Shown here: piece after piece, positions 1,417 to 22,016 of the stretch | Position numbering within the stretch: the stretch's first letter is position 1 | How the letters are laid out: each line of letters starts with the position of its first letter | Source: a virus | DNA: 64,000 bases | Strand: one strand, 5' to 3' | Virus record (IMG/VR): IMGVR_UViG_3300013372_004679 | Coordinates: 1 to 64,000 of that record | The notes under the pieces: model-generated | The model's database searches: none | Told to the model about the DNA's origin: nothing | What the model saw: only the letters and a program-made list of their open reading frames with translations | Position numbers and translations under genes: made by a program

Positions 1417-1768
1417 TAATGATGATATCAAAGCTCTAATAGCTATTCTACAAAAGGGACTTTCTGATGAAGATACATCAGAATCCGCTCCGGTTAAACG
1501 CACTACCAAGCCAAAGGCTGTGGTCGCCAAGCCTAAAGTTAGAAAAACAACTAATAAATTTGAAAAAATGGCTGAATTCAATATGTGCAAAGAAGATGTG
1601 GAAATAGACAGAAAGATTAGAAAACCACCGCCATCAGCTAGAACTAGAGCATTTGATCTTGTAAAAGTACAGTGTCGTGTTTGTGGAAAAAAAGAAAAAG
1701 TTGCACCATCACTAGTCGAGTCTAATGATAGATATAAGTGCAACAAGTGTTCAACAGGAGCGGGTTGA
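1406..1768 (+). CDS. small zinc-ribbon protein
   Basis: A 120-residue protein. The N-terminal 55 residues are Lys/Pro/Ala-rich and probably disordered (KRTTKPKAVVAKPKVRKTT). The C-terminal part carries CRVCGKKE and, about 24 residues later, CNKC, a four-cysteine zinc ribbon. This suggests a nucleic-acid or replisome-binding accessory protein. The stop TGA overlaps the helicase start (TGATG at 1766-1770), so it is probably translated together with the helicase; a loader or adaptor role is possible but not supported by any specific motif. Confidence 0.6.
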   Translation: MGLDNDDIKALIAILQKGLSDEDTSESAPVKRTTKPKAVVAKPKVRKTTNKFEKMAEFNMCKEDVEIDRKIRKPPPSARTRAFDLVKVQCRVCGKKEKVAPSLVESNDRYKCNKCSTGAG

Positions 1769-3222
1769 TGATTTTGTGTGATCCTGCCGCGGAAAGAGCG
1801 GTATTAGCTGGTATTTGTACATATGGTGAAAACGCTTATTTAGACGTTGCCGATATTGTACAAGAAAGTTCTTTCACTATTGATAGTAATAGTATTATTT
1901 TTAAGTGTGTCAAAACACTTTGTGAAAATAATCAGAATACTATTGATATAGCATCGATATATTCTGTTGCTCAAGAGTTGGGTGTTTCTAATATTCTATC
2001 AAAGAAAGAAGAGACACAACACCTAAAGGCTATTATGGATTTTCCAGTTAGCCTAGATAATGTTCGAAAGTTCGCTGCTAAAATTCGCAAGCTAGAAATA
2101 GCCAGATTATTACGCAAGCAGTTGGAAACAACTCAGGACAAAATTCTAGAGATTACTGGAAATGAGCCAATAGCATCAATCATTGGAATAGCAGAAGATA
2201 GTATTTTTAATTTTACATCTCTGTTAAACGATGCTGATGATAAGCCTGTATCTATAGGCTCTGATATAGAAGAATATGTCAAAAATCTTGAAGAAAATAA
2301 AACAGATCAAGTTGGTATTCCAACCGGCTTTCCTATCTATGATCAGGCTATAGGTGGTGGTTTACGTAAGGGAACAATCAATGTCATCGGAGCTAGACCC
2401 AAAACCGGTAAAACTTTGTTATCAGACAACATGGGTTTCCATATTGCGAATAAATTAGGTTTGCCAGTACTCAATATGGATACAGAAATGAACAAGGAAG
2501 ATCATATCAATAGAGTACTTGCTATGATGACAGAAATAGAAATTAATAGCATTGAAACTGGTAAATTCGCGGAATCACCAGATAAAAAGAATAAGATCAA
2601 TAATGCTGCTAAGTCTTTAAAGGATACAAAACTATTTTACAAAACTATCGCCGGCAAACCATTTGAAGATCAATTGGCAATCATGCGACGATGGTTAGTT
2701 AAAGAGGTTGGATTAAATGATGACGGAACAGCAAAAGACTGTGTTATATTTTATGATTATCTCAAATTAATGGATAGTGCTGGTATAAATCAAGATTTAA
2801 AAGAATATCAAGTTCTTGGATTCATGATGACTAGTTTGCATAATTTCGCGGTAAGATACAAGGTGCCTATTGTTGCGTTTATACAGTTAAATCGTGACGG
2901 TATCACAAAAGAAAGCACAGACTCAGCAAGCGGATCTGATAGAATTATTTGGCTATGTAGTAATTTTAGTATCTTCAAGCGTAAAAGCGATGAAGAAATT
3001 GCAGAAGATGGTCCAGATAATGGTAATAGAAAACTACTACCCCTAGTAAGCCGCCACGGCGGAGGTCTTGATGACAACGACTATATCAATTGCAATATGA
3101 AGGGATGGTGTGCTAAAATTACAGAAGGTAAAACACATCTTGAAATTAAAAACAATTCTAAATCTGAGAGCGAGGGCTTCGTAGTCGATGACGATGACAA
3201 TGACCAAATCCCATTTGAATGA
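1768..3222 (+). CDS. dnaB: replicative DNA helicase, DnaB family
   Basis: The protein is 484 residues from ATG 1768. I prefer this start over GTG 1738 because AGGAGC precedes it and TGATG overlaps the upstream stop. The N-terminal helical domain (DPAAERAVLAGICTYGE) is followed by a RecA-fold ATPase with Walker A GARPKTGKTLL near residue 208. The segment VPIVAFIQLNRDG matches the DnaB H3 motif (sensor Gln), and SGSDRIIWLCSN matches the usual GS..I.Q.AD region. The first catalytic Glu follows PVLNMDTEM. It would unwind the fork as a hexamer together with the downstream primase. Length and domain order are normal for a phage DnaB. Confidence 0.92.
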   Translation: MILCDPAAERAVLAGICTYGENAYLDVADIVQESSFTIDSNSIIFKCVKTLCENNQNTIDIASIYSVAQELGVSNILSKKEETQHLKAIMDFPVSLDNVRKFAAKIRKLEIARLLRKQLETTQDKILEITGNEPIASIIGIAEDSIFNFTSLLNDADDKPVSIGSDIEEYVKNLEENKTDQVGIPTGFPIYDQAIGGGLRKGTINVIGARPKTGKTLLSDNMGFHIANKLGLPVLNMDTEMNKEDHINRVLAMMTEIEINSIETGKFAESPDKKNKINNAAKSLKDTKLFYKTIAGKPFEDQLAIMRRWLVKEVGLNDDGTAKDCVIFYDYLKLMDSAGINQDLKEYQVLGFMMTSLHNFAVRYKVPIVAFIQLNRDGITKESTDSASGSDRIIWLCSNFSIFKRKSDEEIAEDGPDNGNRKLLPLVSRHGGGLDDNDYINCNMKGWCAKITEGKTHLEIKNNSKSESEGFVVDDDDNDQIPFE

Positions 3223-4342
3223 TCAGGCAAAACTAAAAATAGTATGTGATGAAGTTTGTGATAACATCGAAACACTGCTAGATTCTTTTGGTTTAGATTA
3301 TAAGTTCAATAATAAGATGATTACAATGCCATGTCCAATTCATGGTGGAGATAATGCATCCGCACTTAATCTATATCCAGAAGGAGATAGTTATAGAGGA
3401 AATTGGAAATGCAGAACACACAACTGCGAAAAGGTTTTTAAAGGCTCTGTTATAGGCTTTATTAGAGGAGTAATATCTAATCAGAAATATAATTGGAAAG
3501 AATCTGGTGATGAAACATGCTCTTTTAAAGAAGCTGTACAATATGCTACCTCCTTTATTAATAAAGATCTAAGTAGCATTAAAATTAGTCGAAAAGACAG
3601 AGAAAAGAAACAGTTTACTGCTGTAATAGGATATCTAAATAAAGAACAAACAAAATCACTATCCAAAGTCACCAGACAACAAATTGTTAAGTCTTTAAAT
3701 ATTCCAGCACAATATTATTTAGATCGTCAATATTCTAAAGATATTTTGATCAAGTACGATGTTGGTATGTGTGAAAAAGAAGGCAAAGAAATGTACAACA
3801 GGATAGTTGTGCCTATTTATGATAATGATCATCAATATATGGTTGGCTGTACTGGTCGTAGTACTTATGAAAAATGTCCTTTATGTAAAGGCTTTCATAA
3901 TCAATCCAATAGTTGTCCAGATAAGGATAATGTTTGGAAGTTTTCAAAATGGAAACACAACGCTGATTTTAAAAGTCAAAACCACCTTTACAACTTCTGG
4001 TTTGCTAAAGAACATATACTAAAATCAGGAATTGCTATCATAGTTGAAAGTCCCGGTAATGTATGGAGACTAGAAGAAAATGGTATACACAATAGTGTAG
4101 CAATGTTTGGATCTTCTCTTAGCGACAGACAGAAAATTTTATTAGATTCTTCTGGTGCTATGAGTCTTATTGTTCTAGCGGATAACGATGAGGCTGGACG
4201 TAAAGCAGCGGATCAAATTAAACATAAGTGTCAAAATACTTATCGTATATTTATACCACCAATTAGTGCGTCAGATGTTGGAGATATGACATCAGAACAA
4301 ATTAATAATGAAATTAAGACCTATTTAGAAAGAATATCATGA
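3188..4342 (+). CDS. dnaG: DNA primase (CHC2 zinc finger plus Toprim)
   Basis: The protein has 384 residues. A zinc-binding module is visible as C49-x2-H52 (MPCPIHGG) and C74-x4-C79 (WKCRTHNC), followed by KGSVIGFIRG as in CHC2 primases. A Toprim domain follows, with the catalytic Glu in IIVESPGN (about residue 286) and the DxD motif in ADNDEAGRKAA (about residue 332). An additional C..C...C pair (KCPLCKGFHNQSNSC) lies in the middle. It is shorter than bacterial DnaG (about 580 residues) and lacks an obvious C-terminal helicase-binding domain, as many phage primases do. The start lies 35 nt inside the helicase gene; three ATG codons at 3188, 3194 and 3200 are possible. Confidence 0.88.
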   Translation: MTMTMTKSHLNDQAKLKIVCDEVCDNIETLLDSFGLDYKFNNKMITMPCPIHGGDNASALNLYPEGDSYRGNWKCRTHNCEKVFKGSVIGFIRGVISNQKYNWKESGDETCSFKEAVQYATSFINKDLSSIKISRKDREKKQFTAVIGYLNKEQTKSLSKVTRQQIVKSLNIPAQYYLDRQYSKDILIKYDVGMCEKEGKEMYNRIVVPIYDNDHQYMVGCTGRSTYEKCPLCKGFHNQSNSCPDKDNVWKFSKWKHNADFKSQNHLYNFWFAKEHILKSGIAIIVESPGNVWRLEENGIHNSVAMFGSSLSDRQKILLDSSGAMSLIVLADNDEAGRKAADQIKHKCQNTYRIFIPPISASDVGDMTSEQINNEIKTYLERIS

Positions 4343-4920: not shown

Positions 4921-5957
4921 TTACATATTTAAGAAGCAGTTCATATGGCACACACAGTATGTGCCCTATGCAATACTTTATAGAATATAATTTAGGTCTT
5001 AGATCACCATCAAATAAGAAAGCTGATAAAGGAACTATTTGTCATAAGGTACTAGAAATTTTAGCCCATATTAAATTATGCACTCAGAATAACCAAACTA
5101 TTTATGTTGACGATATTATCGGCGATGTTGATATTAATAAGTATAATTTGACTCATATTACTGAACAGGTTTATAAGTATTACACGAGCCAGTTTAAACA
5201 TCATGTATGGGAAAACAAAGACTATAAAGACTGCCTCCTATGGGTAAATAAAGCAATCACAGACCACAATGGTGACTTTGATCCTCGCAACAGAGACATA
5301 CTACAGCCAGAGCAGCATTTTGATATCGTGATAAATAAACCTTGGGCTTATTATAAGTATAAGACTAAAAACGAAGATTTAGAAGGTAATTTAGCCATAA
5401 AAGGAACAATTGATCTTATTACCAAAGTCAATGATGACACTATAGAAATCATAGACTGGAAAACTGGCCGTCGTTTGGACTGGGCGACTGGAGAAGAAAA
5501 AACTTTGGCAAAGTTGCAGAATGATCCACAACTCAGAATTTATCATTATGCTGTGAGTGCATTATATCCAAATATGTCTCATATTATCTTTACTATTAAT
5601 TTTATAAATGATGGTGGGGCTTTCAGTGTTTGTTACGATAAATCCGATCTGCCTAAAACAGAAGATATGATTAGACAAAAGTTTGAAACAATAAAAAACA
5701 CTAAAGTTCCTCAGTTAAATAAAAGTTGGAAGTGCAATAAACTATGTCACTTTGGAAAAACAACTTTTGAAAATGGTCATATTCTTCCAATATTAGAATA
5801 TAGAGATAATCAGCTGTGTAAAGTAGACACAACAATGACCAAATGTGAACAAGTTAAACACGATATTGAACTGAAGGGTATAGAAAATGTAATTGACACT
5901 TACACGATGCCCGGTTATACTGTTGGTAAGTACAAGGCACCCGGAAGCGCAGAATGA
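4914..5957 (+). CDS. Cas4/RecB-like PD-(D/E)XK nuclease with probable Fe-S cysteines, non-ATG start
   Basis: A RecB-family exonuclease: KADKGTICHKVLEILA (H motif), GTIDLI with the first Asp, EIIDWKTG with D-x-K, and QLRIYHYAV (the Q..Y motif). A Cys next to the N-terminus (SMCPMQYF) and C-terminal cysteines (WKCNKLCHFGK, MTKC) suggest an AddB/Cas4-type iron-sulfur cluster. The first ATG in frame is 4959, but the family-typical residues TYLRSSSYGTHS are encoded upstream of it, directly after the kinase stop. I therefore place the start at ATT 4914 (AAGGA at 4901-4905, 8 nt spacing); ATA 4917 or ATT 4920 are alternatives. The product would be about 347 residues. It overlaps the next gene by ATGA. 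Confidence 0.8.
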   Translation: MIITYLRSSSYGTHSMCPMQYFIEYNLGLRSPSNKKADKGTICHKVLEILAHIKLCTQNNQTIYVDDIIGDVDINKYNLTHITEQVYKYYTSQFKHHVWENKDYKDCLLWVNKAITDHNGDFDPRNRDILQPEQHFDIVINKPWAYYKYKTKNEDLEGNLAIKGTIDLITKVNDDTIEIIDWKTGRRLDWATGEEKTLAKLQNDPQLRIYHYAVSALYPNMSHIIFTINFINDGGAFSVCYDKSDLPKTEDMIRQKFETIKNTKVPQLNKSWKCNKLCHFGKTTFENGHILPILEYRDNQLCKVDTTMTKCEQVKHDIELKGIENVIDTYTMPGYTVGKYKAPGSAE

Positions 5958-7828
5958 ACTATATACCTTTACATTGTCATTCAATGTTTAGTCTGTTGGA
6001 TGGACTCTCTAAACCAGAACAAATGGCAGAACGATGTTTAGAAATTGGAGCATCTGCCTGTGCCTTAACTGATCACGGTAATATCGCCGGGTCTGTTAAA
6101 TTTTATACTGCTATGAAAAAGGCTGGTATCAAACCTATTCTTGGGTGTGAGCTTTATATTTGTGAACAAGATCCATCTATTAAAGAAAAAGATAATAGAA
6201 ATCTAAGTCATTTTATAGTATTAGCAAAAAATTATCAAGGATGGAAAGACTTAATTAAAATAGTCTCTTCTTCGAATAAACCAGACTTCTACTATCACAA
6301 AGCAAGACTAGACTTGAAAACATTAGGTAGTCTTAATAGTGGTAATTTAATAGCTATTACTGGTCACCTAGGATCAACATTAGCAGACAATATTCTTGAT
6401 AACTATAATCTCAAAGAAGATTGGCTAGCTTTAGGCATTAAGCATGTATCGTATATAAAAGAACTTTTTAACGACCATGTGTTTCTTGAGGCTCAGCTAA
6501 TGGATTGTAATAATCTACCAGTACAAAAAATATTAACGGATGCTATTCGTAAAATTGGACAAGCCACAAACACCAAGATTATCTGTACCCCAGATGCCCA
6601 TTACGCATCAAAAGAAGATGCTGTTGATCAAAGAATCCTGCTTTGCAACAATCTGAAAACTACATTTCCTGACATTAGCCGTAAGATAAGTAATGACGAA
6701 GATGTTCCCATGGGGTGTTTTTTTACATCTGATAATTATCATATATTATCTCAAGAAGAAATTAAAGAACTTCATACAGATGAGGAAATAACAAACACCA
6801 ATATTGTAGCAGATATGGTGGAAGATTATGATATATTAAGCAAGCCAAAACTGCCTCCATTTAATTGTCCAGAAGGATATAATCCTGATGAGTATTTAAG
6901 AGAGTTGTGTAGAACGGGGTGGAGAGAAAAGATTACTAATATCATACGACAAGAGGATCAAAAGCCATATTTAGATAGAATCAAATATGAACTGGAGGTT
7001 TTACAGGGTGCTGGGCTTAGCAGTTACTTTTTAATTGTACAAGATATTGTGAATTATGTTAGACAAAACCATTGGCTTCCTGGGCCTGGACGCGGAAGCG
7101 CTGCTGGGTGTTTGGTTTCTTATTTAATTGGTATTACTAGTATTGATCCTATTAAGTATAATTTATTCTTTGATAGATTTTATAATTCTGGACGTAATAC
7201 TAAAGATCGTATTAGTATGCCAGATATTGATGTGGATGTTCCTATTAATAAAAGAGAAATCATTATAGAATATATTAAACAAAAATACGGATACGATAAA
7301 GTATCTCAAATGGTAACATTTAATACTATTAAAGGCAGAGGCGCTCTTAAAGATGTATTAAGAGTCTACGGCAATGTGTCTTTTGAAGAAATGAATAAGA
7401 TTACTAAAAATATACCAGACGAAGCCAAAATTGCCGATGAACTTCAAGAAATGAAAGAAGAAACCGGAGAATCATCAATTATTCGTTGGGCATTAGAGAA
7501 CAATGCAGAAAAACTTAAAGAGTGGTGCTATATTGACGATAATAACGAATTACAGGGGCCGTTGGCAAAAAGATTCGAGCAGGCTATTAGACTTGAAGGA
7601 ACAAAGTCCAATCAATCAAAACACGCTGCTGGTATCGCCATTAGTGCTGAACCTTTAAGTGAGATTTGTCCTATGGTTTATGATAGTAAAAATCAACAAC
7701 TAATTGCCGGTATGGAAATGCAAGATCTAGAAAGTATCGGAATTATTAAATTCGATATTTTAGGTGTTGCTATGTTAGATAAAATTATGACAATTACTGA
7801 CCTATTACAAGAAGGAGTGGTATTATGA
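5954..7828 (+). CDS. dnaE: DNA polymerase III alpha subunit, N-terminal part (PHP plus palm)
   Basis: This 624-residue protein covers the PHP domain and most of the palm of a C-family polymerase. PHP metal-site motifs are present: LHCHSMFSLLDG (H7, H9), LTDHGNIAG and GCELYI. The palm shows GPGRGSAAGC, the catalytic pair in PDIDVDVP (D426 and D428) and the third acidic residue in IIKFDILGV (D601), equivalent to D401, D403 and D555 of E. coli DnaE. Translation stops 23 residues later; fingers, HhH and OB domains are encoded separately at 8688-10304. Together the halves total about 1162 residues, essentially the length of an intact DnaE. No intein motifs are present at the break. Confidence 0.93.
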   Translation: MNYIPLHCHSMFSLLDGLSKPEQMAERCLEIGASACALTDHGNIAGSVKFYTAMKKAGIKPILGCELYICEQDPSIKEKDNRNLSHFIVLAKNYQGWKDLIKIVSSSNKPDFYYHKARLDLKTLGSLNSGNLIAITGHLGSTLADNILDNYNLKEDWLALGIKHVSYIKELFNDHVFLEAQLMDCNNLPVQKILTDAIRKIGQATNTKIICTPDAHYASKEDAVDQRILLCNNLKTTFPDISRKISNDEDVPMGCFFTSDNYHILSQEEIKELHTDEEITNTNIVADMVEDYDILSKPKLPPFNCPEGYNPDEYLRELCRTGWREKITNIIRQEDQKPYLDRIKYELEVLQGAGLSSYFLIVQDIVNYVRQNHWLPGPGRGSAAGCLVSYLIGITSIDPIKYNLFFDRFYNSGRNTKDRISMPDIDVDVPINKREIIIEYIKQKYGYDKVSQMVTFNTIKGRGALKDVLRVYGNVSFEEMNKITKNIPDEAKIADELQEMKEETGESSIIRWALENNAEKLKEWCYIDDNNELQGPLAKRFEQAIRLEGTKSNQSKHAAGIAISAEPLSEICPMVYDSKNQQLIAGMEMQDLESIGIIKFDILGVAMLDKIMTITDLLQEGVVL

Positions 7829-8010
7829 CCAAACAGTTTCAAGATCTATCAGATGGACAGGTTTTTACTCTAAATGGTTTACAATTTAAGAAAACAGCCC
7901 TTCTAAAGATTAGCTGTTGTCGTTCGATTAATGCAGAAGAATCAACAAATGCCAATAATCGTATTTTTGTAAATCCTAATCAGGAAGTAGAAGTAGATGA
8001 TCAACTATAA
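7825..8010 (+). CDS. small conserved-type phage protein
   Basis: A 61-residue protein beginning MTKQFQDLSDGQVFTLNG and ending VNPNQEVEVDD. The pattern F..L..G..F...G..F.KT, then N.......V.P...VEV, is a small beta-rich module I have seen in many phage hypothetical proteins; no function is established. It overlaps the polymerase N-half by ATGA and the exonuclease start by 14 nt, so it belongs to the polymerase translational unit. It might be an accessory subunit of the split polymerase, but that is only inferred from position. Confidence 0.6.
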   Translation: MTKQFQDLSDGQVFTLNGLQFKKTALLKISCCRSINAEESTNANNRIFVNPNQEVEVDDQL

Positions 8011-8695
8011 TAAAATTTGTGTTTTTGACTTTGAGACAGACGGTTGTGATCCGACAGTGTGTAGTCCTGTACAGATTGCTGCTGTTATGATAGATCCTAT
8101 TCATTTAGAGATTATAGATGGTTCAGAGTTTAATATCAACTTTAAACCTGAAGTTTTAGAGAACAATGATAACTATAAATATGAAACAGATATTTTGGAT
8201 TTTCATTCAAAAGTAAAAGCATGTAGTCAGGATGAGATATTAAAATCTTGGTATCAATATCCTAAGCAAGATCATGCATGGAAATTATTTGTGAACTATC
8301 TTGATAAATATCATACAAGAAGTTCTAAAAAGAGTCAGTTTAGCGCCCCTATCGCCGCTGGATACAATATTTATAGATTCGATCTACCAATTGTTGATCG
8401 ACTTAGCAAGAAATATGGAAATGTTAATAAGGAAAACAGAACAGACATATTTTTTCCACGAGATGTTGTAGATGCGATGAATCTAGTTTTTTATTGGTTT
8501 GAACATAACAATGACTTAAAGAGTTATACTCTAGATACTCTTAGAGATTATTTTGGTATTGATAAAGACGGAGCGCATGATGCTATTAAGGACGTTAAAG
8601 ATACCGCCGAAATTATTATCAGATTTATGAAACTACATCGTAATTTAGGACAGAAAATCAAATTTAAGAACGCTTTTGCAACAACAAATGACTAA
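7997..8695 (+). CDS. dnaQ: DnaQ-like 3'-5' exonuclease (probable proofreading subunit)
   Basis: A 232-residue DEDDh exonuclease: motif I FDFETDG (D11, E13), motif II in GYNIYRFDLPI, motif III GAHDAIKDVKDT with the histidine and last aspartate. The middle part contains SYTLDTLRDYFGI, typical of DnaQ and PolC exonuclease domains. It lies between the two halves of the alpha subunit and overlaps both neighbours, so it is very likely the epsilon-type proofreading subunit of this phage polymerase. In PolC an exonuclease domain is inserted in the same polypeptide; here it is a separate gene, and its location between the halves is unusual. Confidence 0.88.
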   Translation: MINYNKICVFDFETDGCDPTVCSPVQIAAVMIDPIHLEIIDGSEFNINFKPEVLENNDNYKYETDILDFHSKVKACSQDEILKSWYQYPKQDHAWKLFVNYLDKYHTRSSKKSQFSAPIAAGYNIYRFDLPIVDRLSKKYGNVNKENRTDIFFPRDVVDAMNLVFYWFEHNNDLKSYTLDTLRDYFGIDKDGAHDAIKDVKDTAEIIIRFMKLHRNLGQKIKFKNAFATTND

Positions 8696-10304
8696 AAAAT
8701 TTCAGTATCCGTGTGGTTGCAGTTTTGATATTGATCAAAATAATGGTGTAACCAAAGTTAATTTTAATCCAAAGATTGAAGATATCAGTCTTGATTGTTC
8801 CAGAACATGGGAATTAATCTCAGATGGAAATACTAAAGGGTGTTTTCAGTTGGAGTCACGACTAGGACGGTCTATGGCTAAAAAATTAAAGCCAGAAAAT
8901 ATAGAGCAATTATCTGCTTTAATTAGCATTATGAGACCAGGATGTTTGGAGGCTGTTCGTGATGGTAAAACAGTTAGTAATCATTATATAGACAAAAAGA
9001 ATGGTCTAGAGTCTGTAGATTATTTCCATAAGTCATTAGAGCCTGTTTTAAAAAATACCTATGGCGAAATGGTATATCAAGAACAGGCGATGGAGATTAC
9101 CAAGGCTATTGCAGGATTTGATCTTCAAGAAGCAGATATGTTAAGAAAAGCTATTGGTAAAAAGAAACCAGAAGAAATGGCCAAGGTTAAATCAAGATTT
9201 TTAGAAGGCACAAAACATCTTGGTATAGTAACAAACGATGAGGCAGAACAGATATTCGGATGGATTGAAAAGAGTCAAAGATATTCATTTAATAAGTCCC
9301 ATAGTGTTAGTTATGCTATAAACGCATATCTATCCGCATATGCTAAGGCACACTTTCCAAAAATATTTTTTGCATCTTACTTGAGATTCGCAAAAGACAA
9401 AATAGATCCTCAAGCAGAAATTAAAGAATTAGTACAAAACGCAAATGAGATGGATGTGCTTGTCAAAACCCCCGATCTGCGTAATATGAATGAATTCTTT
9501 ATATTAAAAAATAATAGTATATACTTTGGTTTAACAGACATTAAGGGGGTTGGAAAGTCGGTTTTTGATAAGCTTACAAATATATCTAGTACCATAGATC
9601 TAAATAAAATAAGCTGGTTGGAATTATTATTTAAAATTCTAAACAATATCAACTCAACTGCGGCTAAAGCCTTAATTCAGAGTGGGGCGACCAACTTTAT
9701 TAACAAAACTAGAAATAGTATGCTTTTTGAATATAATCTAATTAGTGAATTAACAAAAAAAGAAGTAGAGCATATACTTAATAACTTAAATAGTTTTGAT
9801 ACTTTGCAACAGTCTCTAGAATATTTGCTAACGCTGCCAAAGATTAATAAAAATCGGAAAAAAAATATAGAGGATACAATATATTCATTATTAAGTCCTC
9901 CGTATTCGCTAGAAGATACGGCCGAATGGCTAGCAGATTCTGAGGATACATTATTAGGCTGTTCGATTACATGCTCTAAGCTTGATATGTATGATATCAG
10001 TATGACAAATATAACATGTAAAGAACTTAAAACCACATTATCCAAAGATAATCTAATTTTGGGTGGAGAAATTGATTTTATAAATATTACAAAAACCAAA
10101 ACCGGTAAAACTAAAGGGGCGGAAATGGCTTTTGTTACAATGACTGATAGCACTGGCACAATAGACTCTATTGTCTTTTTTCCCGAAAAGTATAAAGAAT
10201 ATAAAAATCTATTATTTCAAGGAAATATTATTATCGTAAAGGGCGGAAAGTCCAAAAATGGCGATGGACTGATTATAGAAAAAGCATATGTGGCTCGTAC
10301 TTGA
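8688..10304 (+). CDS. dnaE: DNA polymerase III alpha subunit, C-terminal part (fingers, HhH, OB)
   Basis: About 538 residues from ATG 8688; the TTG at 8676 is an alternative. It starts with a short Cys-containing leader (YPCGCSFDI, later SLDC), then TKGCFQLESR (equivalent to FQLES in DnaE), IMRPG, MVYQEQAM and YSFNKSHSVSYA. The last is the site that carries split inteins in cyanobacterial DnaE; here it is intact. An HhH-like segment FGLTDIKGVGK and a C-terminal OB fold (DSTGTIDSIVFFPEKYKEY) complete the alpha-subunit architecture. It lacks the three catalytic aspartates, which are all in the 5954-7828 product, so the two chains must associate to polymerise. Confidence 0.92.
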   Translation: MTKKFQYPCGCSFDIDQNNGVTKVNFNPKIEDISLDCSRTWELISDGNTKGCFQLESRLGRSMAKKLKPENIEQLSALISIMRPGCLEAVRDGKTVSNHYIDKKNGLESVDYFHKSLEPVLKNTYGEMVYQEQAMEITKAIAGFDLQEADMLRKAIGKKKPEEMAKVKSRFLEGTKHLGIVTNDEAEQIFGWIEKSQRYSFNKSHSVSYAINAYLSAYAKAHFPKIFFASYLRFAKDKIDPQAEIKELVQNANEMDVLVKTPDLRNMNEFFILKNNSIYFGLTDIKGVGKSVFDKLTNISSTIDLNKISWLELLFKILNNINSTAAKALIQSGATNFINKTRNSMLFEYNLISELTKKEVEHILNNLNSFDTLQQSLEYLLTLPKINKNRKKNIEDTIYSLLSPPYSLEDTAEWLADSEDTLLGCSITCSKLDMYDISMTNITCKELKTTLSKDNLILGGEIDFINITKTKTGKTKGAEMAFVTMTDSTGTIDSIVFFPEKYKEYKNLLFQGNIIIVKGGKSKNGDGLIIEKAYVART

Positions 10305-10374: not shown

Positions 10375-10740
10375 ATGAATATTGTAATGCTAAGGGGTAA
10401 TCTAGCTAGGGATCCGGAACTACGTAAGGTTGGAGACAAGCAAACGTCTGTTGTTAATTTTACCGTAGCAACTTCTAGAGAGTTTACAAAGGCTGACGGA
10501 TCACAAGACAAGATTACATCTTTTATTCAGTGTGAGGCATGGGATAGCGGAGCCGACGCTATTGCTTCATCGTTCAAGAAGGGTGATCTTGTGATGGTTG
10601 AAGGTTCTTTAAGGAATGATAGCTGGGAAAAGGATGGCGTAAAGCATAGTACTCTTAAGGTAAGAGTTAATAACTTCGCCAAGATTCAAAAGACCAAGCG
10701 ATCTGAAAAGAGTCTAGAAGCAGAACCGGTAGCGTTCTAA
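10375..10740 (+). CDS. ssb: single-stranded DNA-binding protein
   Basis: A 121-residue OB-fold SSB. MLRGNLARDPELR, VVNFTVATSREF, IQCEAWDSGADAI and GDLVMVEGSLRNDSW are the usual SSB strand and aromatic positions. A strong ribosome-binding site AAAGGAG precedes the ATG. It is shorter than bacterial SSBs (about 170 residues), and the C-terminus is EAEPVAF instead of the classic acidic DDxPF tip: the terminal Phe is kept but the acidic run is reduced. It coats single strands at the phage fork. It has its own consensus promoter upstream and a long hairpin downstream. Confidence 0.93.
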   Translation: MNIVMLRGNLARDPELRKVGDKQTSVVNFTVATSREFTKADGSQDKITSFIQCEAWDSGADAIASSFKKGDLVMVEGSLRNDSWEKDGVKHSTLKVRVNNFAKIQKTKRSEKSLEAEPVAF

Positions 10741-10747
10741 AGGGAAG

Positions 10748-10795
10748 TCCATGGGAATCTCTAGTACTATAATGGTGCTAGAGATTTTCCTTGGA
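10748..10795 (+). terminator. long hairpin after ssb, probable terminator
   Basis: A near-perfect inverted repeat. The core is AATCTCTAGTAC (10756-10767), loop TATAATG, GTGCTAGAGATT (10775-10786), with one G-U pair. The arms extend outward as TCCATGGG and TTTTCCTTGGA. It lies 15 nt after the ssb stop and ends in a short T run (TTTT). It separates the replication block from the glycan block. Because the arms are long and symmetrical, an operator or RNA-processing function is also possible. Confidence 0.6.
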
Positions 10796-10808
10796 TAATA
10801 TTTATAAT

Positions 10809-12449
10809 ATGAAAAAAAGAATTTTAGTGGTTAATGATGCTAGCTTTTTAAATACTGGATATGGTATTTACGGCAAGGAGTTATTAACACGACTACATAA
10901 CAGCAATAAGTTTGAAGTAGCAGAACTAGGCTGCTATGCCGATACAACTAATCCTAAGATTAAAAATATTCCATGGAAATTCTATCCTAATGCTGTATCG
11001 TCAAACGATAATAGGCTACAACAATATAGAGCGAATGCTTTAAATCAGTTTGGACTATGGAGATTTAATAGGTGTGTGGCAGATTTTAAACCGCATATCG
11101 TATTTGATGTTCGTGATTATTGGATGTTTTCATATCAAGAAACTAGCCCATACAAGAAATATTTCAATTGGGTTATAATGCCCGCCACAGATTCTGCACC
11201 ACCAAAAACAGAATGGCTATATACTTTTTGTAATGCTGATATGGTTGTACCATATACAGAATGGGCAAAAAAAACACTAAAATTATCGTGTGGAAATCAG
11301 ATAAATCTATTTCCTAAAATTGCAAATGCTGGTATTAATCCTACAGAATTCTATCCTTTAGATAATAAATCAGAACATAAAAAGAAATATTTTGGTCAGG
11401 ATTTACATATCATAGGCACAGTTATGCGTAATCAAAGGCGCAAACTGCTTCCTGACCTAATGATAGCATTTAAAAAATATCTAGAAGTTCTAAAGCAGTC
11501 TAATAATAAGGAACTAGCTGATAAAACATATCTTTATTTGCACACATCATATCCAGAGGATAGTGGTTGGGATATACCTTCGTTGTTATTAGAGTACGGG
11601 ATCGCTGATAAAACATATTTTACATATCATTGTAGAAATTGTCATGGCTGGTTTCCGGCCAAGTTTCAGCAAAGCATAACAGTATGTAAACATTGTAATA
11701 GCAAAGCAGCGTGTATTGCTAGTCCAGTAAATGGTATTAGTACCGAACAACTCAATCAGGTATATAATCTTTTTGATATCTTTATGCAATATGCTATATG
11801 CGAAGGCTTTGGAATGCCGCAAATCGAAGCAGCAGCCTGTGGATTAACTCTTGCTTCTGTAGATTATAGTGCAATGACTGAGATTATAGATAATTTAGGT
11901 GGTTATAAAATTCCAGTATCTCGTACGTTTAGAGAGATGGAAACAAATGCTGATAGAGTTTATCCAGATATTGATAAAACTGTAGCTATTATGTATGATT
12001 TCTTTGTCAATCTATCTCATGAAGATCGTGTGGCCAATGGATTGTCAACAAGAGAAAAGTGCATATCACACTACACATGGGATAACGTGTACAAAGTATG
12101 GGAAGAATGCTTTGACAGTATTAATACCAACAACAAACTATCATGGAACTCTCCGGCTGTACAACAAACGAACCATACGTTAAAAGTACCTAAAGAATTA
12201 ACAGATAAAGAATTTATACAATTTATTTGTATGAATGTTATAAATGATACAACACTATTAAATACATCCCATATCCAATCATTAATCAAAGATTCTGTTA
12301 GTGGTATGGTTGCTAGACCAGGATCTATAGTTTCTATTGATCGTAATTATTTAGTAGAGAAGCTAGAATCATACTTAAATAATAAAATTATGTGTGAAAA
12401 AATGAGAATTGAACCTCAATCTATCATAAAAGAGGATTTTATTAAATAA
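10809..12449 (+). CDS. glycosyltransferase, GT4-like, with internal zinc-ribbon insert
   Basis: 546 residues from ATG 10809 (MKKRILVVNDASFLNTGYG); the TTG at 10791 lies in the preceding hairpin. The N-terminal half has a GT-B Gly-rich start. The C-terminal half has the E-x7-E motif in EGFGMPQIEAAACG (about residue 331) that binds the donor sugar nucleotide in GT4 enzymes. Between the two Rossmann domains, near residues 274-295, sit CRNC and CKHC, a four-cysteine zinc ribbon not found in typical bacterial GT4 enzymes. It opens the plus-strand glycan cluster and overlaps the next start by one base (TAATG). Confidence 0.82.
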   Translation: MKKRILVVNDASFLNTGYGIYGKELLTRLHNSNKFEVAELGCYADTTNPKIKNIPWKFYPNAVSSNDNRLQQYRANALNQFGLWRFNRCVADFKPHIVFDVRDYWMFSYQETSPYKKYFNWVIMPATDSAPPKTEWLYTFCNADMVVPYTEWAKKTLKLSCGNQINLFPKIANAGINPTEFYPLDNKSEHKKKYFGQDLHIIGTVMRNQRRKLLPDLMIAFKKYLEVLKQSNNKELADKTYLYLHTSYPEDSGWDIPSLLLEYGIADKTYFTYHCRNCHGWFPAKFQQSITVCKHCNSKAACIASPVNGISTEQLNQVYNLFDIFMQYAICEGFGMPQIEAAACGLTLASVDYSAMTEIIDNLGGYKIPVSRTFREMETNADRVYPDIDKTVAIMYDFFVNLSHEDRVANGLSTREKCISHYTWDNVYKVWEECFDSINTNNKLSWNSPAVQQTNHTLKVPKELTDKEFIQFICMNVINDTTLLNTSHIQSLIKDSVSGMVARPGSIVSIDRNYLVEKLESYLNNKIMCEKMRIEPQSIIKEDFIK

Positions 12450-13207
12450 TGATAAATGATCAAGTACATAGTATTCATACTCCATGCAAGCAGTGTGTTT
12501 TTGCTAAGTATGATAATATCACACAGACGGGTTGTCATCTCGACTATATTAACAAGTATCGTACATCTGGTATTCAAATACTAGAAGCTTATGATGATGA
12601 TAAAGAGTTTTATATTATCAACGATAAAAAGTGCATAGGATATAGAGAAAATAAATGGTTCGATCAATTTGATTTGGCCAATTCCCCCATAGAAGATAAA
12701 ATTAATCACTATAAACAAAATAATAAGTTACATTATTTAGTTATAGTTAATATGAAGAATTTCTCCGCTGATCAACTAGTAGATTTTTTTACAGAATTAA
12801 CACGAACTGATATTCGACCACAAAAGATTATTCTGATCAGATACAGAGACCCATCGGCTAATTTAAGCTATGAAACCATAGAATCTATTATTAACGACTC
12901 TAAAGTAGGTTGCTCTTGGCGTATTCAAACAATGCTTGATGATTCTATTTCTTATGAAGAGATATTACATAATACTACTACTGTTAATCAAAAATATAGA
13001 TTTATAATGTCTATTTCAGAACCAACGCCAAACTTTGCTTATTTGATAGATTATACCAATGATATAGTCTATGAAAAGCTTGAACAGTTTGGGGTGGTAT
13101 CGAATCCATCTAAAACAGCGATTATATATAGTGGTGGGGTTTATAGGTTTGGAATTGCTCATAATGAAAATATACTAAATCAATACGATAAATACGATAC
13201 ACTATGA
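12449..13207 (+). CDS. hypothetical protein with N-terminal cysteine cluster
   Basis: A 252-residue protein I do not recognise. It starts with C13-x2-C16 (CKQCVFAKY) and a third Cys at 29 (TGCHLDY), which could bind a metal. A middle segment (HYLVIVNMKN, then PQKIILIRYRDPS) resembles the first strands of a GT-A Rossmann fold, but no DxD is evident. Its position between a GT4 enzyme and a nucleotidyltransferase-like gene, with 1-nt and 4-nt overlaps, suggests a role in the same glycan pathway. Confidence 0.5.
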   Translation: MINDQVHSIHTPCKQCVFAKYDNITQTGCHLDYINKYRTSGIQILEAYDDDKEFYIINDKKCIGYRENKWFDQFDLANSPIEDKINHYKQNNKLHYLVIVNMKNFSADQLVDFFTELTRTDIRPQKIILIRYRDPSANLSYETIESIINDSKVGCSWRIQTMLDDSISYEEILHNTTTVNQKYRFIMSISEPTPNFAYLIDYTNDIVYEKLEQFGVVSNPSKTAIIYSGGVYRFGIAHNENILNQYDKYDTL

Positions 13208-13860
13208 ACTGTATTATACTTGGTGATAAATTTCAAAAACGCATGAAGTCTAAAGGATGCGTTGGTCTAATCAAAGTTAATAATAAAAGCATAATACAAA
13301 ATCAATATAAAATTATTAAACAGGTATTTCCCAAAGCAAATGTAGTTTATGTATATGGTTTTGAACATAAAAGATTTCAATCGTTTTTATCAAATAAGAC
13401 CAGTGGCTTAGATAATCTTACTAGTATATATAATCATAGTTTTGAAAAATACAATAATGCTTATAGTATATCTTTAGTCGATGATTTTTTAAACGATGAC
13501 TGTATGATATTTTTTGGCGATCTTATTTTATCTAGAAAAACTTTTGATAAATTTATGCCACAAAATGGCTCGCAAATATTTATTAATCAAAAAAATAAAA
13601 ATAGGCTTGGTTGTGTGATTAATAATTCTAAAATAGAAAATATAGCTTATGATTTAGATAACTATTTATCAGAAATTTATTTTCTTACTAAAAACCATTC
13701 GATCATGATAAAGGATTTGTTAAAAAATAAAATTAATCATAATTGTTTTATATTTGAGATTATAAATAAACTTATAGATATGGATCAAACTATTAGTCCA
13801 CTATTTTCTGAAAACATATCATCATTAACACTTTTATCAAATAGGATGCAGTATGAATAA
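13204..13860 (+). CDS. nucleotidyltransferase-like protein (GT-A fold)
   Basis: 218 residues. The N-terminus CIILGDKFQKRMKSKG, then GLIKVNNKSIIQNQYKIIK and VVYVYGFEHKRF, follows the layout of sugar-phosphate nucleotidyltransferases (nucleotide loop, base/phosphate Lys, first half of the Rossmann sheet). MIFFGDLILS near residue 98 would be the metal-binding Asp of the NTP-transferase fold. The canonical G-G-x-G-T-R-L loop is degenerate, so activity is uncertain. It probably activates a sugar or phospho-alcohol for the neighbouring transferases. ATGA overlap with the previous gene. Confidence 0.55.
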   Translation: MNCIILGDKFQKRMKSKGCVGLIKVNNKSIIQNQYKIIKQVFPKANVVYVYGFEHKRFQSFLSNKTSGLDNLTSIYNHSFEKYNNAYSISLVDDFLNDDCMIFFGDLILSRKTFDKFMPQNGSQIFINQKNKNRLGCVINNSKIENIAYDLDNYLSEIYFLTKNHSIMIKDLLKNKINHNCFIFEIINKLIDMDQTISPLFSENISSLTLLSNRMQYE

Positions 13861-14194
13861 TTCTTTTGGAATATTTGCAGAAAATCTAGAACAAAGCAAA
13901 GACCTAATTTGTGAACTAGCCAATCAATGTAAAAAAATAGGAGACACTGTATTATTTACAGATAGTATACAGAGCAACGAATTTACTGACTATGCTATTT
14001 TTCCATCTTTTTATATGAGATTTTTTCAGGGTGTTATTATCTTTTTAAATATAGAAGATCATACTCAACACAAAGATATTATTATCGGTAAACCTATGTT
14101 ATATCTAACTGAACAAATGCTTAAAGAAAATAAAATAGACGGATCAATGATTAATAAATCAGAAATATTTTCAGCATCTGGAGGATATTCATGA
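13853..14194 (+). CDS. hypothetical protein in glycan cluster
   Basis: A 113-residue protein with no motif I recognise. It begins FGIFAENLEQSKDLICELAN and looks like a small alpha/beta domain (VLFTDSI, YAIFPSFYM, GVIIFLNIED), reminiscent of the N-terminal half of a GT-B domain without a catalytic half. It overlaps the preceding gene by 8 nt and the next by ATGA, so it is probably translated; function unknown. Confidence 0.5.
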   Translation: MNNSFGIFAENLEQSKDLICELANQCKKIGDTVLFTDSIQSNEFTDYAIFPSFYMRFFQGVIIFLNIEDHTQHKDIIIGKPMLYLTEQMLKENKIDGSMINKSEIFSASGGYS

Positions 14195-14982
14195 ATTACA
14201 ACGAACTATCTGATAAACAAAAAAAAGAACTATTAATTAATGAATATGAGATTAATAATCATAGTTTCAGAGAAATAGCCATATCACATGGTACTTATGC
14301 TAATAAAATAAGAAGAGATGCTATAAAGTTTAATATTAATATCAAAGATAAAAGTCAAGCACAAAAAAACGCTATATCTAGTGGCAAAGTAGATCATCCA
14401 ACAAAGGGCAAAAGTAGATCAGAAGAAGTAAAAGAAAAAATTGGTTTATCAGTAATGAAGGCGTGGGATGAACTTGATGAACAAACATTAATCCAACGTA
14501 AAGAAAAAGCTCGTCAAAACTGGGAAAGCCTACCAGACGATATCAAAAATAATATCTTAAGAGAAGCTAATATAGCAGTAAGACAGGCTAGTAAAACCGG
14601 CTCGAAACTAGAAAAATTTATTTTCAAAGCGCTATTGAAAGATGGCTATCGTGTAGAATTTCATAAAGAACAAACTCTATCAAATACCAAGTTGCAAATA
14701 GACCTGTTTCTGCCTACTTTAAATACAGCAATCGAGATTGATGGATTGTCTCACTTTGAGCCGGTGTGGGGTCATGATACCCTAGCCAGAAATCAAGGAT
14801 ACGACAATAAGAAAACAGGACTCATGCTAGGTAAAGGTTTGGTTTTAATTAGAATCAAACAAGTAAAAGACTTCTCTCCAAGTAGAGCCAAAGTATTGTA
14901 TAATGATTTAAAGATAATATTACAAAATATACAAACAAAATTTCCTGATACAGACAATAGAAATATTATAATAGGAGACTGA
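14191..14982 (+). CDS. VSR-like (EDxHD-type) homing-type endonuclease
   Basis: 263 residues in three parts. The N-terminal helix-turn-helix-like segment (SFREIAISHGTYANKIRRDA) is followed by a middle region with KGKSRSEEVKEKIGLSV, a NUMOD-type DNA-contact helix common in homing endonucleases. The C-terminal nuclease domain has QIDLFLPTLNTAIEIDGLSH, where the E-x-D-xxx-H cluster near residue 181 fits the VSR-like PD-(D/E)XK homing nucleases, then NKKTGLMLGKG and VLIRIKQ. It has no obvious role in glycan synthesis, so it is probably a free-standing mobile endonuclease that inserted between the glycan genes and 14987. Separated from the next gene by 4 nt. Confidence 0.75.
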   Translation: MNYNELSDKQKKELLINEYEINNHSFREIAISHGTYANKIRRDAIKFNINIKDKSQAQKNAISSGKVDHPTKGKSRSEEVKEKIGLSVMKAWDELDEQTLIQRKEKARQNWESLPDDIKNNILREANIAVRQASKTGSKLEKFIFKALLKDGYRVEFHKEQTLSNTKLQIDLFLPTLNTAIEIDGLSHFEPVWGHDTLARNQGYDNKKTGLMLGKGLVLIRIKQVKDFSPSRAKVLYNDLKIILQNIQTKFPDTDNRNIIIGD

Positions 14983-17165: not shown

Positions 17166-17587
17166 TCGCCTGCCAACTCAAACACCTTGTAGCCCGCTGC
17201 CATCAGCGTGGCTACACTCTAGAAGAAGTTAGACCATGTATTGTAAGTCAAGATGGAGACGAAATTATTGTTGATGAAAATCATCCATTATATCCAAAAG
17301 AATCTAAATTTAGTCCTATATCACAACAAATAATTAAAACGGGAGCAGGAACAGAGCTTAAAAAACTTTTGGGAAAGATTGGTATTAAAGCTTCACCAAG
17401 TTGTTCATGTAATAAAAGAGCAATAGTTATGGATAATAATGGAATAGAGTGGTGTGAAAATAATATTGATACTATCATAGGATGGCTAAAAGAAGAAGCA
17501 ACAAAAAGAAAACTACCATTTATTGATATGGCAGGAAGAATGTTAGTAAAAAAAGCTATTAGTAACGCTAAAAAAAATGCACAATAA
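17162..17587 (+). CDS. RGYTLEEV-type protein (planctomycete-like family, unknown function)
   Basis: 141 residues from ATG 17162, chosen because it overlaps the preceding stop as ATGA and starts the conserved part MIACQLKHLVARCHQRGYTL. The N-terminal motif RGYTLEEVRPCIV..DGD is followed by VDENHPLYP, GAGTELKKLLGKIGIK, SCSCN and GWLKEEATKRKLPF. I recall a similar family in Planctomycetes genomes, function unknown. The first about 20 codons are GC-rich and the remainder AT-rich, so the right edge of the GC-rich segment lies inside this gene. Two short Cys groups could bind a metal. Confidence 0.6.
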   Translation: MIACQLKHLVARCHQRGYTLEEVRPCIVSQDGDEIIVDENHPLYPKESKFSPISQQIIKTGAGTELKKLLGKIGIKASPSCSCNKRAIVMDNNGIEWCENNIDTIIGWLKEEATKRKLPFIDMAGRMLVKKAISNAKKNAQ

Positions 17588-19214
17588 TATATCTTTTGTA
17601 ACTGGTATATGGGATTTGGGACGGGATTCTGCCGCTAGTGGCTGGAATAGAACGTTTCAACATTATATAGATAATTTCATTAGACTATTAACCGAAATGA
17701 AAGATTATAATCTTATAGTCTTTATTGATCCATCTATAGAACATATAGTATGGGAACACAGAGATAGAAAAAATACTGTTGTTTATCATCATTCCAAAGA
17801 TAAGTTTAATGGTAATTTCTTTCCATTCTTTGATCAAGTCCAAAAAATTCGTAATGACCCACAGTGGTATGGTCAGGCGGGCTGGTTAAAAGACAGCACT
17901 CAAGGATCATTAGAGTATTATAATCCAATGGTTATGAGCAAAATGTTCTTGCTCAATAATGCTAGATTATTTAATCCATTCAATAGTGATCACTATTATT
18001 GGATTGATGGTGGTATTACCAACACTCTTAGTCTAGGTTATTTCAATAATTCTGTTGTAATAAATAATTTAATTAACTTATCTAAAAAGTTTCTATTTAT
18101 TTGTTTTCCATATGAAACCAATTCTGAGATTCATGGTTTTAATATAGAGGCAATGAAAAAATTTAGCAATAGCGACACCGTGAATAGGGTGGCTCGCGGA
18201 GGATTTTTCGGAGGACACAAAAACTATATTCATCAAGCAAACGGACTATACTATCAACTATTGCATAATTCTCTACATGAAGGTTTTATGGGGACCGAAG
18301 AGAGTATTTTTACAATAATGACATATTTACAACCAGAAACGTACCACCACGAAATGATAAATGGTGACGGATTAGTATACACGTTTTTTGAAAAATTACA
18401 GGAAAAAGCTTATATAGCAAATAATTCTAAAGGAGTTAATCTATATATAAATACTTTTCAGTCTCCATCTCAGTTGCAGATGTTATTAGACTCATTCGAA
18501 AAATATGAATCATCATTACTACAAAATACAAATAAAATTTTAATAAATAATACCCCCGACACCGATAAAAATACAGAACTATTTAAACACTATGACAATA
18601 TTTGTGCAAAATACCAATTCACGCAAATAAAAAATGGAAACATGGGTATTTGTGGATCTAGACAATGGTGTGCTGAACACTTTCAAGACTCAGATGCTGA
18701 ATATATGTTATTTTTTGAAGATGATATGTTATTAGATTTTAATGGTAATTGTCCGTTTGGTTTTAATAAGAATGTCGAAAATTTATTAGAAACCATTATT
18801 GAGATAATGAATAAAGAGAAATATGATTTTCTAAAATTAAGCTTTAGCGAATTCTATGGACACAATGGAGATCAGTGGAGTTGGCATAATGTTCCACAGA
18901 ATCAAAAGATACAATATTTTGGTGAATTAGTTAATAGGCCGCCTACAAAATTCAATAATATCAAATCTTTAAACAACACACCATATGCCGATGGTGAGAT
19001 TTACTATAGTAACTGGCCACATATTATAAGCAAAGAAGGCAACAAACGTTGCTTCTTGGATACAAAATGGGCTCATCCTTTTGAGCAAACTTGGATGAGT
19101 CATTTATATACTTTGGCACATAATAGTATTATTAGACCAGCAATACTTTTAGCTAGTCCTATAACACATAATCGTGAACATCACTACCTTGCATCAGAAA
19201 GAAAAGAAAACTAA
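17577..19214 (+). CDS. two-domain glycosyltransferase (HtrL/YibB-like plus GT2-like)
   Basis: 545 residues. The N-terminal about 280 residues (FVTGIWDLGRD, then YYNPMVMSKMFLL, YYWIDGGI) match the HtrL/YibB (WlaTC) family of putative glycosyltransferases. The C-terminal half begins a second domain (VNLYINTFQSPSQL), with FFEDDMLLD near residue 380 giving an E-D-D metal site, and CGSRQWCAEHF. A bifunctional transferase adding two sugars is the simplest reading. It starts inside the last codons of the preceding gene (11-nt overlap). Confidence 0.75.
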   Translation: MHNNISFVTGIWDLGRDSAASGWNRTFQHYIDNFIRLLTEMKDYNLIVFIDPSIEHIVWEHRDRKNTVVYHHSKDKFNGNFFPFFDQVQKIRNDPQWYGQAGWLKDSTQGSLEYYNPMVMSKMFLLNNARLFNPFNSDHYYWIDGGITNTLSLGYFNNSVVINNLINLSKKFLFICFPYETNSEIHGFNIEAMKKFSNSDTVNRVARGGFFGGHKNYIHQANGLYYQLLHNSLHEGFMGTEESIFTIMTYLQPETYHHEMINGDGLVYTFFEKLQEKAYIANNSKGVNLYINTFQSPSQLQMLLDSFEKYESSLLQNTNKILINNTPDTDKNTELFKHYDNICAKYQFTQIKNGNMGICGSRQWCAEHFQDSDAEYMLFFEDDMLLDFNGNCPFGFNKNVENLLETIIEIMNKEKYDFLKLSFSEFYGHNGDQWSWHNVPQNQKIQYFGELVNRPPTKFNNIKSLNNTPYADGEIYYSNWPHIISKEGNKRCFLDTKWAHPFEQTWMSHLYTLAHNSIIRPAILLASPITHNREHHYLASERKEN

Positions 19215-19223
19215 GGATAAATA

Positions 19224-20486
19224 ATGTCAGCAGAAAATACTATTTTTATTCAAATAGCCGCTTATAGAGATCCGCAACTTTTACCAACCTTACGAGACGC
19301 TATAGATAAAGCAAAATTTCCAGAAAACTTAAGATTTGGTATATCGTGGCAGCATTGTGAAAATGATAGTTGGGATAATTTGGATAATTATAAGAATGAT
19401 TCTAGATTTAAAATAATAGATATAGATTATCGAGATAGTAAAGGTGTCTGTTGGGCTAGAAATTTAGTACAAAATCTTTATCAGGGAGAAGCTTACACTT
19501 TACAATTAGATAGTCATCATAGGTTTGTGGAAAACTGGGATACTACATTAATAGAAACTCTAACTAATCTGCAAAAAGAAGGATATCCAAAACCACTAAT
19601 TACTGCTTATGTTCCTAGTTTTGATCCGGACAACGATCCAGAAAAACGAGTAATAGAACCATGGAAAATGACCTTTGATAGATTTATTCCCGAAGGTGCT
19701 GTGTTCACATTACCAGCATCATATAATCCACAAATTGATGATGTTAGCAAACCATTACCAGCAAGATTTTATAGTGCGCACTTTGCTTTTAGCGTAGGAG
19801 CATTTGCTAAAGAAGTACAACACGATCCAGAATACTATTTTCATGGAGAAGAAATTAATATTGCTGTTAGGGCTTTTACTCATGGATATGATTTATTTTA
19901 TCCGAATACCATAGTATGCTGGCATGAATATACGAGAAAAGGACGAACTAAACAATGGGACGATGATAAAACCTGGGGTCAAAAAAATACTCATTGTCAT
20001 TCTAGAAATAGAAAATTATTTGGTATGGACGGAGAAATTAACGATATTGATTTTGGTAAATATGGATTTGGTAATACGAGAACGCTAAAACAATACGAAA
20101 AATACTCCGGATTATGTTTTAGCAACAGATGCATTACTCAGGATGTTATTGATCATATACCTCCTAAACTTTCTAATATGGAAATATCAGATGAGGAATT
20201 TGAATCAAAACTAATACCAATTTTTAAACATTGTATAGATATTGGCTATAATCAAGTAGAAGAAAATGATTATGATTTTTGGTGTGTAGCATTCAAAGAC
20301 CAAAACGGTAATGATATTTATAGACAAGATGCTGATGAGAACGAAATTGGAATCATGAAAAATGATCCCGATGGATACTGCAAGATATGGCGAACATTTA
20401 GAACACAGATTCAACCACAAAGTTGGATAGTATGGCCCCATAGTAAATCAAAGGGCTGGGCTGATCCTATTACTGGAAATATATGA
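19224..20486 (+). CDS. GlcNAc-transferase-like protein (Skp1-type GT60 family)
   Basis: 420 residues. IFIQIAAYRDPQLLPTLRD at the N-terminus, GVCWARN, the metal motif LQLDSHHRF near residue 95, and YYFHGEEINIAVRAFTHGYD are the hallmarks of the GlcNAc family (PF11397) related to Skp1 hydroxyproline N-acetylglucosaminyltransferase. In eukaryotes these modify a hydroxylated proline; phage and bacterial homologues have unknown acceptors. The C-terminal about 100 residues form an extra domain ending in SWIVWPHSKSKGW. Located among other transferases and 5 kb upstream of genes for Thr/Pro-rich virion proteins. Confidence 0.78.
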   Translation: MSAENTIFIQIAAYRDPQLLPTLRDAIDKAKFPENLRFGISWQHCENDSWDNLDNYKNDSRFKIIDIDYRDSKGVCWARNLVQNLYQGEAYTLQLDSHHRFVENWDTTLIETLTNLQKEGYPKPLITAYVPSFDPDNDPEKRVIEPWKMTFDRFIPEGAVFTLPASYNPQIDDVSKPLPARFYSAHFAFSVGAFAKEVQHDPEYYFHGEEINIAVRAFTHGYDLFYPNTIVCWHEYTRKGRTKQWDDDKTWGQKNTHCHSRNRKLFGMDGEINDIDFGKYGFGNTRTLKQYEKYSGLCFSNRCITQDVIDHIPPKLSNMEISDEEFESKLIPIFKHCIDIGYNQVEENDYDFWCVAFKDQNGNDIYRQDADENEIGIMKNDPDGYCKIWRTFRTQIQPQSWIVWPHSKSKGWADPITGNI

Positions 20487-20487
20487 T

Positions 20488-21297: not shown

Positions 21298-21306
21298 AAG
21301 TTTTCA

Positions 21307-22014: not shown

Positions 22015-22016
22015 TA

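Follow-up and report, generated by a model that had tools for sequence, protein, structure and literature searches.

A clade of uncultured phages encodes its DnaE-type polymerase as two genes with an exonuclease gene between them

The C-family (DnaE-type) polymerase usually takes the form of a single polypeptide. In cyanobacteria its gene, dnaE, is interrupted at the YCFN site within the fingers half, a break that is healed by trans-splicing through the Npu/Ssp DnaE intein. For phages, our literature search retrieved one direct precedent of a split C-family polymerase: the group 2.2 jumbo phages encode a minimal Pol III alpha in two proteins, which are proposed to restore the enzyme jointly; no other Pol III domains are reported, the two genes lie far apart and a family B replicase is present alongside (PMC7824862). 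Here we describe a different arrangement in a stretch of viral DNA of 64,000 nucleotides (the window), which comprises bases 1-64000 of the 66,497-bp IMG/VR virus record IMGVR_UViG_3300013372_004679. A DnaE-type polymerase is encoded there by two genes on the plus strand, A (the PHP and palm half) and D (the fingers, HhH and OB half), and between them lie gene B, for a 61-residue protein, and gene C, for a DEDDh exonuclease. This locus has in common with the jumbo phages a C-family polymerase made of two proteins, and differs in that the PHP domain is present, the genes are adjacent and no PolB was detected in 12 long records. Like the cyanobacterial dnaE it consists of two genes, but its break lies elsewhere and carries no intein. 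We are fairly confident that A and D form a two-subunit DnaE-type replicase that was broken ancestrally, assembles non-covalently and is translated together with its proofreader, C.

Polymerase halves and the genes between them

Gene A (5954-7828) encodes 624 residues with the Pfam domains PHP (E 4.5e-36) and DNA_pol3_alpha (E 5.3e-73), and matches positions 42-616 of the 1190 positions of phrog_405 (E 1.5e-164). Gene D (8688-10304) encodes 538 residues from the ATG at 8688, or 542 from an alternative TTG at 8676; it contains DNA_pol3_finger (E 5.4e-46), HHH_6 and an OB fold, and covers positions 622-1066 of phrog_405. Since A and D fit consecutive parts of this family, together they amount to one DnaE that lacks the tau-binding region at the C-terminus, and the two proteins in succession carry PHP, palm, fingers, HhH and OB in the C-family order. 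The first-pass annotation, made from the sequence alone, was thus right in describing the polymerase as two genes of these lengths. Its statement that their sum equals an intact DnaE is correct as a number; as a statement about domains it fails, since D stops just after the OB fold and lacks the tau-binding domain, which is found only in bacterial DnaE1. All three catalytic aspartates lie in A, as had been proposed, and D424, D426 and D601 are invariant in an alignment of 64 sequences. The ligands of the PHP metal centre, which we take to be H7, H9, D16, H41, E66, H86, H138, D214 and H216 from the presumed correspondence with Mycobacterium tuberculosis (Mtb) DnaE1, are mostly invariant in the same alignment; this apparently full set makes a second, PHP-based exonuclease possible. 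When modelled alone with AlphaFold2, A (mean predicted local distance difference test score, pLDDT, 88.6) has Taq DnaE as its nearest structure (2hpi, E 5e-48), and D (mean pLDDT 89.0) is matched by Foldseek to Taq DnaE (4iqj, E 2e-23) and to Mtb DnaE1 (7pu7, TMq 0.70). Each chain is therefore predicted by these models to fold alone as a DnaE half.

The alignment places the break in the linker that joins palm and fingers in intact DnaE. After the third catalytic aspartate, D601 (codon at 7754-7756; aligned to Taq DnaE), A continues for 23 residues, with a helix (606-619) and disordered last residues in the model. D opens with a short beta-stranded extension (strands 4-6, 12-18 and 21-25 in the model), and its homology to DnaE begins at about residue 28-30. 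The segment YPCGCSFDI, before which the break had been placed, is indeed found at D7-15; its CGC motif (8712-8720) belongs, however, to this N-terminal extension of D. C9, G10 and C11 are conserved in 97%, 94% and 97% of the 64 sequences, respectively, and the segment is absent from D of three loci (L149-L151). That the break does not coincide with the cyanobacterial intein site also stood up, YSFNKSHS (D199-206, 9282-9305) being uninterrupted in the window.

We consider it very improbable that the two halves are joined covalently, whether through trans-splicing of protein or RNA or through a ribosome that bypasses B and C. This idea is favoured by relatives in which A and D contain split inteins, at G381|S382 and K203|S204 respectively, and by an apparent short ribosome bypass in A of relatives. 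At the palm-fingers break itself, however, A has a short variable tail, D has its own ATG and its beta-stranded extension, and ~870 nt with two conserved genes separate them. As first proposed, the window has no intein: Pfam detects no intein family in its A or D, no N- or C-intein halves occur at the break, and no intein blocks are seen at the A or D gene ends in any relative inspected. Rfam likewise reports no intron at the window locus. With neither an intein nor an intron nor any other signal for joining them, A and D have to associate as separate chains if the palm is to meet its fingers.

Gene C (7997-8695, 232 residues) matches Pfam RNase_T (E 2e-9) and phrog_192, annotated as 'DNA polymerase exonuclease subunit' (E 5e-21). 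Its DEDDh set (D11, E13, D129, H194 and D199) is invariant in 26 sequences. The full catalytic set and the membership in this phage family make C a likely proofreader, and it is probably the epsilon-like proofreader of the A/D polymerase. An in-frame stop codon was seen inside the exonuclease match of one relative (L158:3050-3730). Gene B (7825-8010) gives only a weak match to phrog_2183. It is recognised by tblastn in most relatives, and a profile search found it in 16 of 18 tested loci in which tblastn had missed it, while a match in L078 was weak but recurred; L073 has no room for B. No other open reading frame (ORF) of the window matched the profile, so B is single copy there, and the possibility that it is one of many paralogues was ruled out.

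Neighbouring genes overlap at all three junctions of the window, by 4 nt (A/B), 14 nt (B/C) and 8 nt (C/D, from the ATG at 8688). An exonuclease gene overlapping both polymerase halves had been described; it overlaps D, whereas the gene that overlaps A is B. Overlapping starts and stops favour joint translation, and a stoichiometric coupling of polymerase and proofreader through gene order, which had been claimed on the same grounds, is plausible.

Conservation, origin and role of the split polymerase

The window belongs to a large clade of uncultured, mostly aquatic phages in IMG/VR. The conservation count covers 114 distinct loci, among them the window, that contain A and D in full. In every one of the 114 the polymerase is split into two genes at the palm-fingers linker and an exonuclease gene lies between the halves. 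The median intergenic distances are +1 nt (A-B), -8 nt (B-C) and -4 nt (C-D), and the junction overlaps in 82 of 87 cases for B-C and in 83 of 114 for C-D. The dN/dS ratios of A, C and D range from 0.01 to 0.09 in 14 close pairs, which indicates purifying selection. An intact gene within the clade, or a sequence error that would explain the split, was sought among these loci and not found; an error of sequencing or assembly is refuted, since independent metagenomes yield this structure in 114 distinct loci. Shared by all of them, the split is a design fixed long ago rather than an error.

In most of the isolate phages tested from outside the clade, the DnaE gene is intact at the palm-fingers linker. 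Intact phage DnaE proteins of phrog_405, such as those of Bacillus phage 056SW001B, Moorella phage MTATph1 and gut phage MT837297, have the same domains, order and active sites as A and D together; unlike the window, they are single chains with open frames of 1053-1176 residues and no gene inside. These intact relatives point to an ancestral single-chain state. Searches of IMG/VR for an intact sister clade did not find one, MT837297 retrieving one locus and Rossellomorea phage phiT1 none. Two isolates are broken at the same linker. In Mycobacterium phage Fowlmouth (gp85/gp86) the halves overlap directly, while phiT1 (gp20/gp18) has a 49-codon gene in the gap, as B is in the window, although its product, gp19, does not evidently resemble B when the two are compared by eye. 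Neither phage has an exonuclease between the halves or the CGC extension, and their identity to the clade is at most ~35%. The clade forms one group in a tree of 58 polymerases, which has several long branches and an unsure deep order. A common origin of the Fowlmouth split with that of the clade was rejected (approximately unbiased test, p 1e-4), and a grouping of phiT1 with the clade was not (p 0.39). The palm-fingers linker has therefore been broken at least twice, independently in Fowlmouth and perhaps in phiT1, and the independent break in Fowlmouth indicates that the linker tolerates it. Elsewhere, DnaE is broken in the palm (Bacillus phage Jayan) or between PHP and palm (Gordonia phage Terapin, Microbacterium phage Poultress and Bacillus phage vB_BpsS-140).

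We propose that an ancestral single-chain phage DnaE would have been broken where a flexible linker leads from the last palm helix into the fingers, that the genes for the small protein and the exonuclease would have come into the gap, and that this state would have been fixed before the clade diversified. A and D would fold separately and join non-covalently via the palm-fingers interface, and overlapping cistrons would have the chains made together, with C as an epsilon-like proofreader. We infer that A and D assemble physically, that C acts on the A/D polymerase, that translation is coupled and that B has a role.

How the gap arose is a separate matter. The split could be the by-product of an invasion by a homing endonuclease that was then lost, B and C filling the gap; we regard this as a possible but not the probable origin, and one compatible with the two-subunit replicase proposed above. 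Homing elements are frequent at this locus in relatives: there are split inteins with endonuclease ORFs, an in-frame intein and, at A427, a LAGLIDADG ORF. In L013 and L173 an ORF that looks HNH-like by sequence separates A from B (L013:2130-2810); it is the sole endonuclease-like gene seen at the palm-fingers break. A precedent is offered by T4 topoisomerase genes 39/60, for which an endonuclease origin of the gene split is accepted (PMC5009743). There, too, a subunit of an essential phage enzyme has been fixed as two genes, but for the clade an endonuclease origin is only possible. In no member of the clade does an endonuclease stand where B and C are, no intermediate of an early stage was seen, and a simple insertion or rearrangement fits equally well. 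The first-pass annotation had suggested looking for a former intron or homing element at the split; no homing element was found in place of B and C, although L013/L173 has the HNH-like ORF between A and B.

The polymerase genes lie in a replication cluster on the plus strand that also encodes a DnaB-like replicative helicase (1738-3222; phrog_19, E 3e-53), a DNA primase (3188-4342; phrog_47, E 2e-29), a Cas4/RecB-like exonuclease whose gene lies upstream and overlaps the start of A in ATGA (4959-5957; phrog_69, E 5e-18) and, just downstream of D, a probable single-stranded DNA-binding protein recognised by sequence inspection only (10375-10740). The presence of helicase, primase and probable single-stranded DNA-binding protein genes argues against an auxiliary or repair enzyme in a phage whose genome is copied by the host replicase, as does the conservation of PHP, palm, fingers and proofreader together. 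Twelve records of 66-233 kb contain one palm and one fingers each (the latter intein-interrupted in G010), and neither PolA nor PolB was matched in them. In favour of an auxiliary role, group 2.2 jumbo phages possess a family B replicase besides their minimal split Pol III alpha (PMC7824862), no beta clamp was matched in the 12 records, and hosts have their own DnaE. On balance we find an auxiliary role unlikely.

Three points weigh against the two-subunit replicase with a co-translated proofreader. First, 0.45-3.6 kb of other genes lie between C and D in four loci (L035, L124, L132 and L269), so that tight coupling is not obligatory. Second, the 12 long records are 'linear' and may be incomplete. 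Third, the proposed contact of C with the polymerase derives only from family membership and position.

Several further features of these loci may be recorded. DUF1559 genes with a prepilin N-terminal motif follow C, and precede D where it is present, in L050 (9728-12080), L035 (10166-11236), L036 and L038; L050 has DUF1501 as well. Both families are presumably typical of Planctomycetota and may indicate the host. Metagenome-assembled genomes titled Chitinophagia, Flavobacteriales and Alphaproteobacteria conflict on this point and may contain binned phage contigs. In the window, regions 10791-14194 and 17577-24616 hold many long ORFs that by eye look like glycosyltransferases or sugar enzymes, and 528-935 and 14191-14982 are Vsr/DUF559-like nuclease ORFs (by eye), possible free-standing homing endonucleases.

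Inteins and candidate ribosome bypass in relatives

The polymerase genes of relatives are interrupted at further positions. A split intein after GPGRG, at A G381|S382, occurs in L082 (3065-6154), L093, L098, L136, L183 and L232. Its plan is an N-intein half ending in a stop, in most cases a separate ORF, and a C-intein half leading into the rest of A; the ORF has an endonuclease-like match in L082 and is mostly lost in L232. The region of the cyanobacterial intein site, said to be intact, is free in the window; in L050, L066 (9732-12691), L077 and L232 a split intein lies between FNK and SHS (D K203|S204), with LAGLIDADG or DUF559-type ORFs between its halves. We take this position to lie four residues past that of the cyanobacterial DnaE intein. 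The N-intein half begins with Ser in three cases and presumably resembles the Npu DnaE intein. At D G85|C86 (MRPG|CLEA), an in-frame intein is present in L017 (9708-12104), L021 and L136; Pfam Intein_splicing is matched in L017, and the insert is HNH-like by sequence. These other breaks in A and D are healed covalently, whereas the palm-fingers break is not. In L313 (3217-4317), A is interrupted at residue 427 by a LAGLIDADG ORF; Rfam found nothing in L313, L117 or L013.

A different interruption is found at the start of A in 25 of 164 distinct loci. Here the conserved beginning, YxPLHVHS, is followed by a stop codon (TAA or TAG), and the protein resumes past an insert of 6, 7, 8, 10 or 11 nt that may fall in any frame and is located at the PHP HxH motif. 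The stop lies at position 7008 in L031, 3799 in L042, 6700 in L054, 6997 in L059, 7008 in L066 and 4981 in L175; further candidates are L005, L062, L067, L069, L122, L146, L164, L169, L170, L221, L222, L224, L270 and L301. The elements come in the order hairpin, TCN, stop, a gap of 3-8 nt and a landing NCN codon. The hairpin, with a 9-bp outer stem immediately 5' of the last Ser codon, has a predicted energy of -13 to -22 kcal/mol in 20 variants, compared with -3.2 +/- 1.9 kcal/mol in 125 insert-free loci; the window has no hairpin. Pairing is kept in 98.3% of cells, and two pairs have changed on both sides (covariation). All 20 variants combine the upstream stem-loop with a take-off codon directly before the stop. 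In 10 of the 25 loci the ribosome would land on TCN and in the others on GCN or ACN, so that codon matching is incomplete. The trait has undergone at least 13 changes on a tree of 156 loci.

An HNH-type gene or remnant lies directly upstream in 8 of the 25 insert-bearing loci vs 1 of the 139 others (Fisher p 8e-7, which is optimistic since the loci are related). Such genes precede A in L175 (4187-4948), L031 (6223-6975), L066 (6236-6976) and L170, with fragments in L017 and L082, an arrangement that resembles the T4 mobA/gene 60 cassette. The bypass of T4 gene 60 itself involves an upstream stem-loop, a stop directly after the take-off codon and a linked homing endonuclease (PMC5009743), and the inserts in A share all three, the endonuclease not in all loci. 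A single +1 frameshift was ruled out as a general explanation, as the inserts span three phases. Translation might instead restart within A of these relatives, at an ATG or TTG, but the in-frame peptide YxPLHVHS is conserved upstream of the stop. Judged from its letters, L042 (TCT TAA TCT) would be a natural in-frame 'stop hop'.

Taken together, we lean modestly towards the view that the polymerase gene of this clade has been broken repeatedly, at least partly by homing elements, and restored by non-covalent assembly at the palm-fingers linker, by split inteins at two other sites and by programmed bypass of 3-8 nt at the PHP active site. Non-covalent assembly would be fixed and the one of the three restorations present in the window; inteins and candidate bypass elements are found in relatives only.

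Significance of the split replicase

Split phage polymerases were already known; the split of this clade, with a proofreader between the halves, is a new form of C-family replicase. It means that a DnaE replicase can persist as two chains over long evolutionary time. The palm-fingers linker, cut independently more than once, is a natural module boundary for split-polymerase design, and the proofreader and small conserved protein between the halves make up a compact replicase operon. The genes of the relatives, in turn, provide natural split inteins inside DnaE. The recoding candidate in these relatives may be a larger discovery than the split itself: if true, the bypass would be a natural, multiply sampled counterpart of that of T4 gene 60, and such endonuclease-linked candidates would open programmed bypass, which is scarce and debated, to many natural variants.
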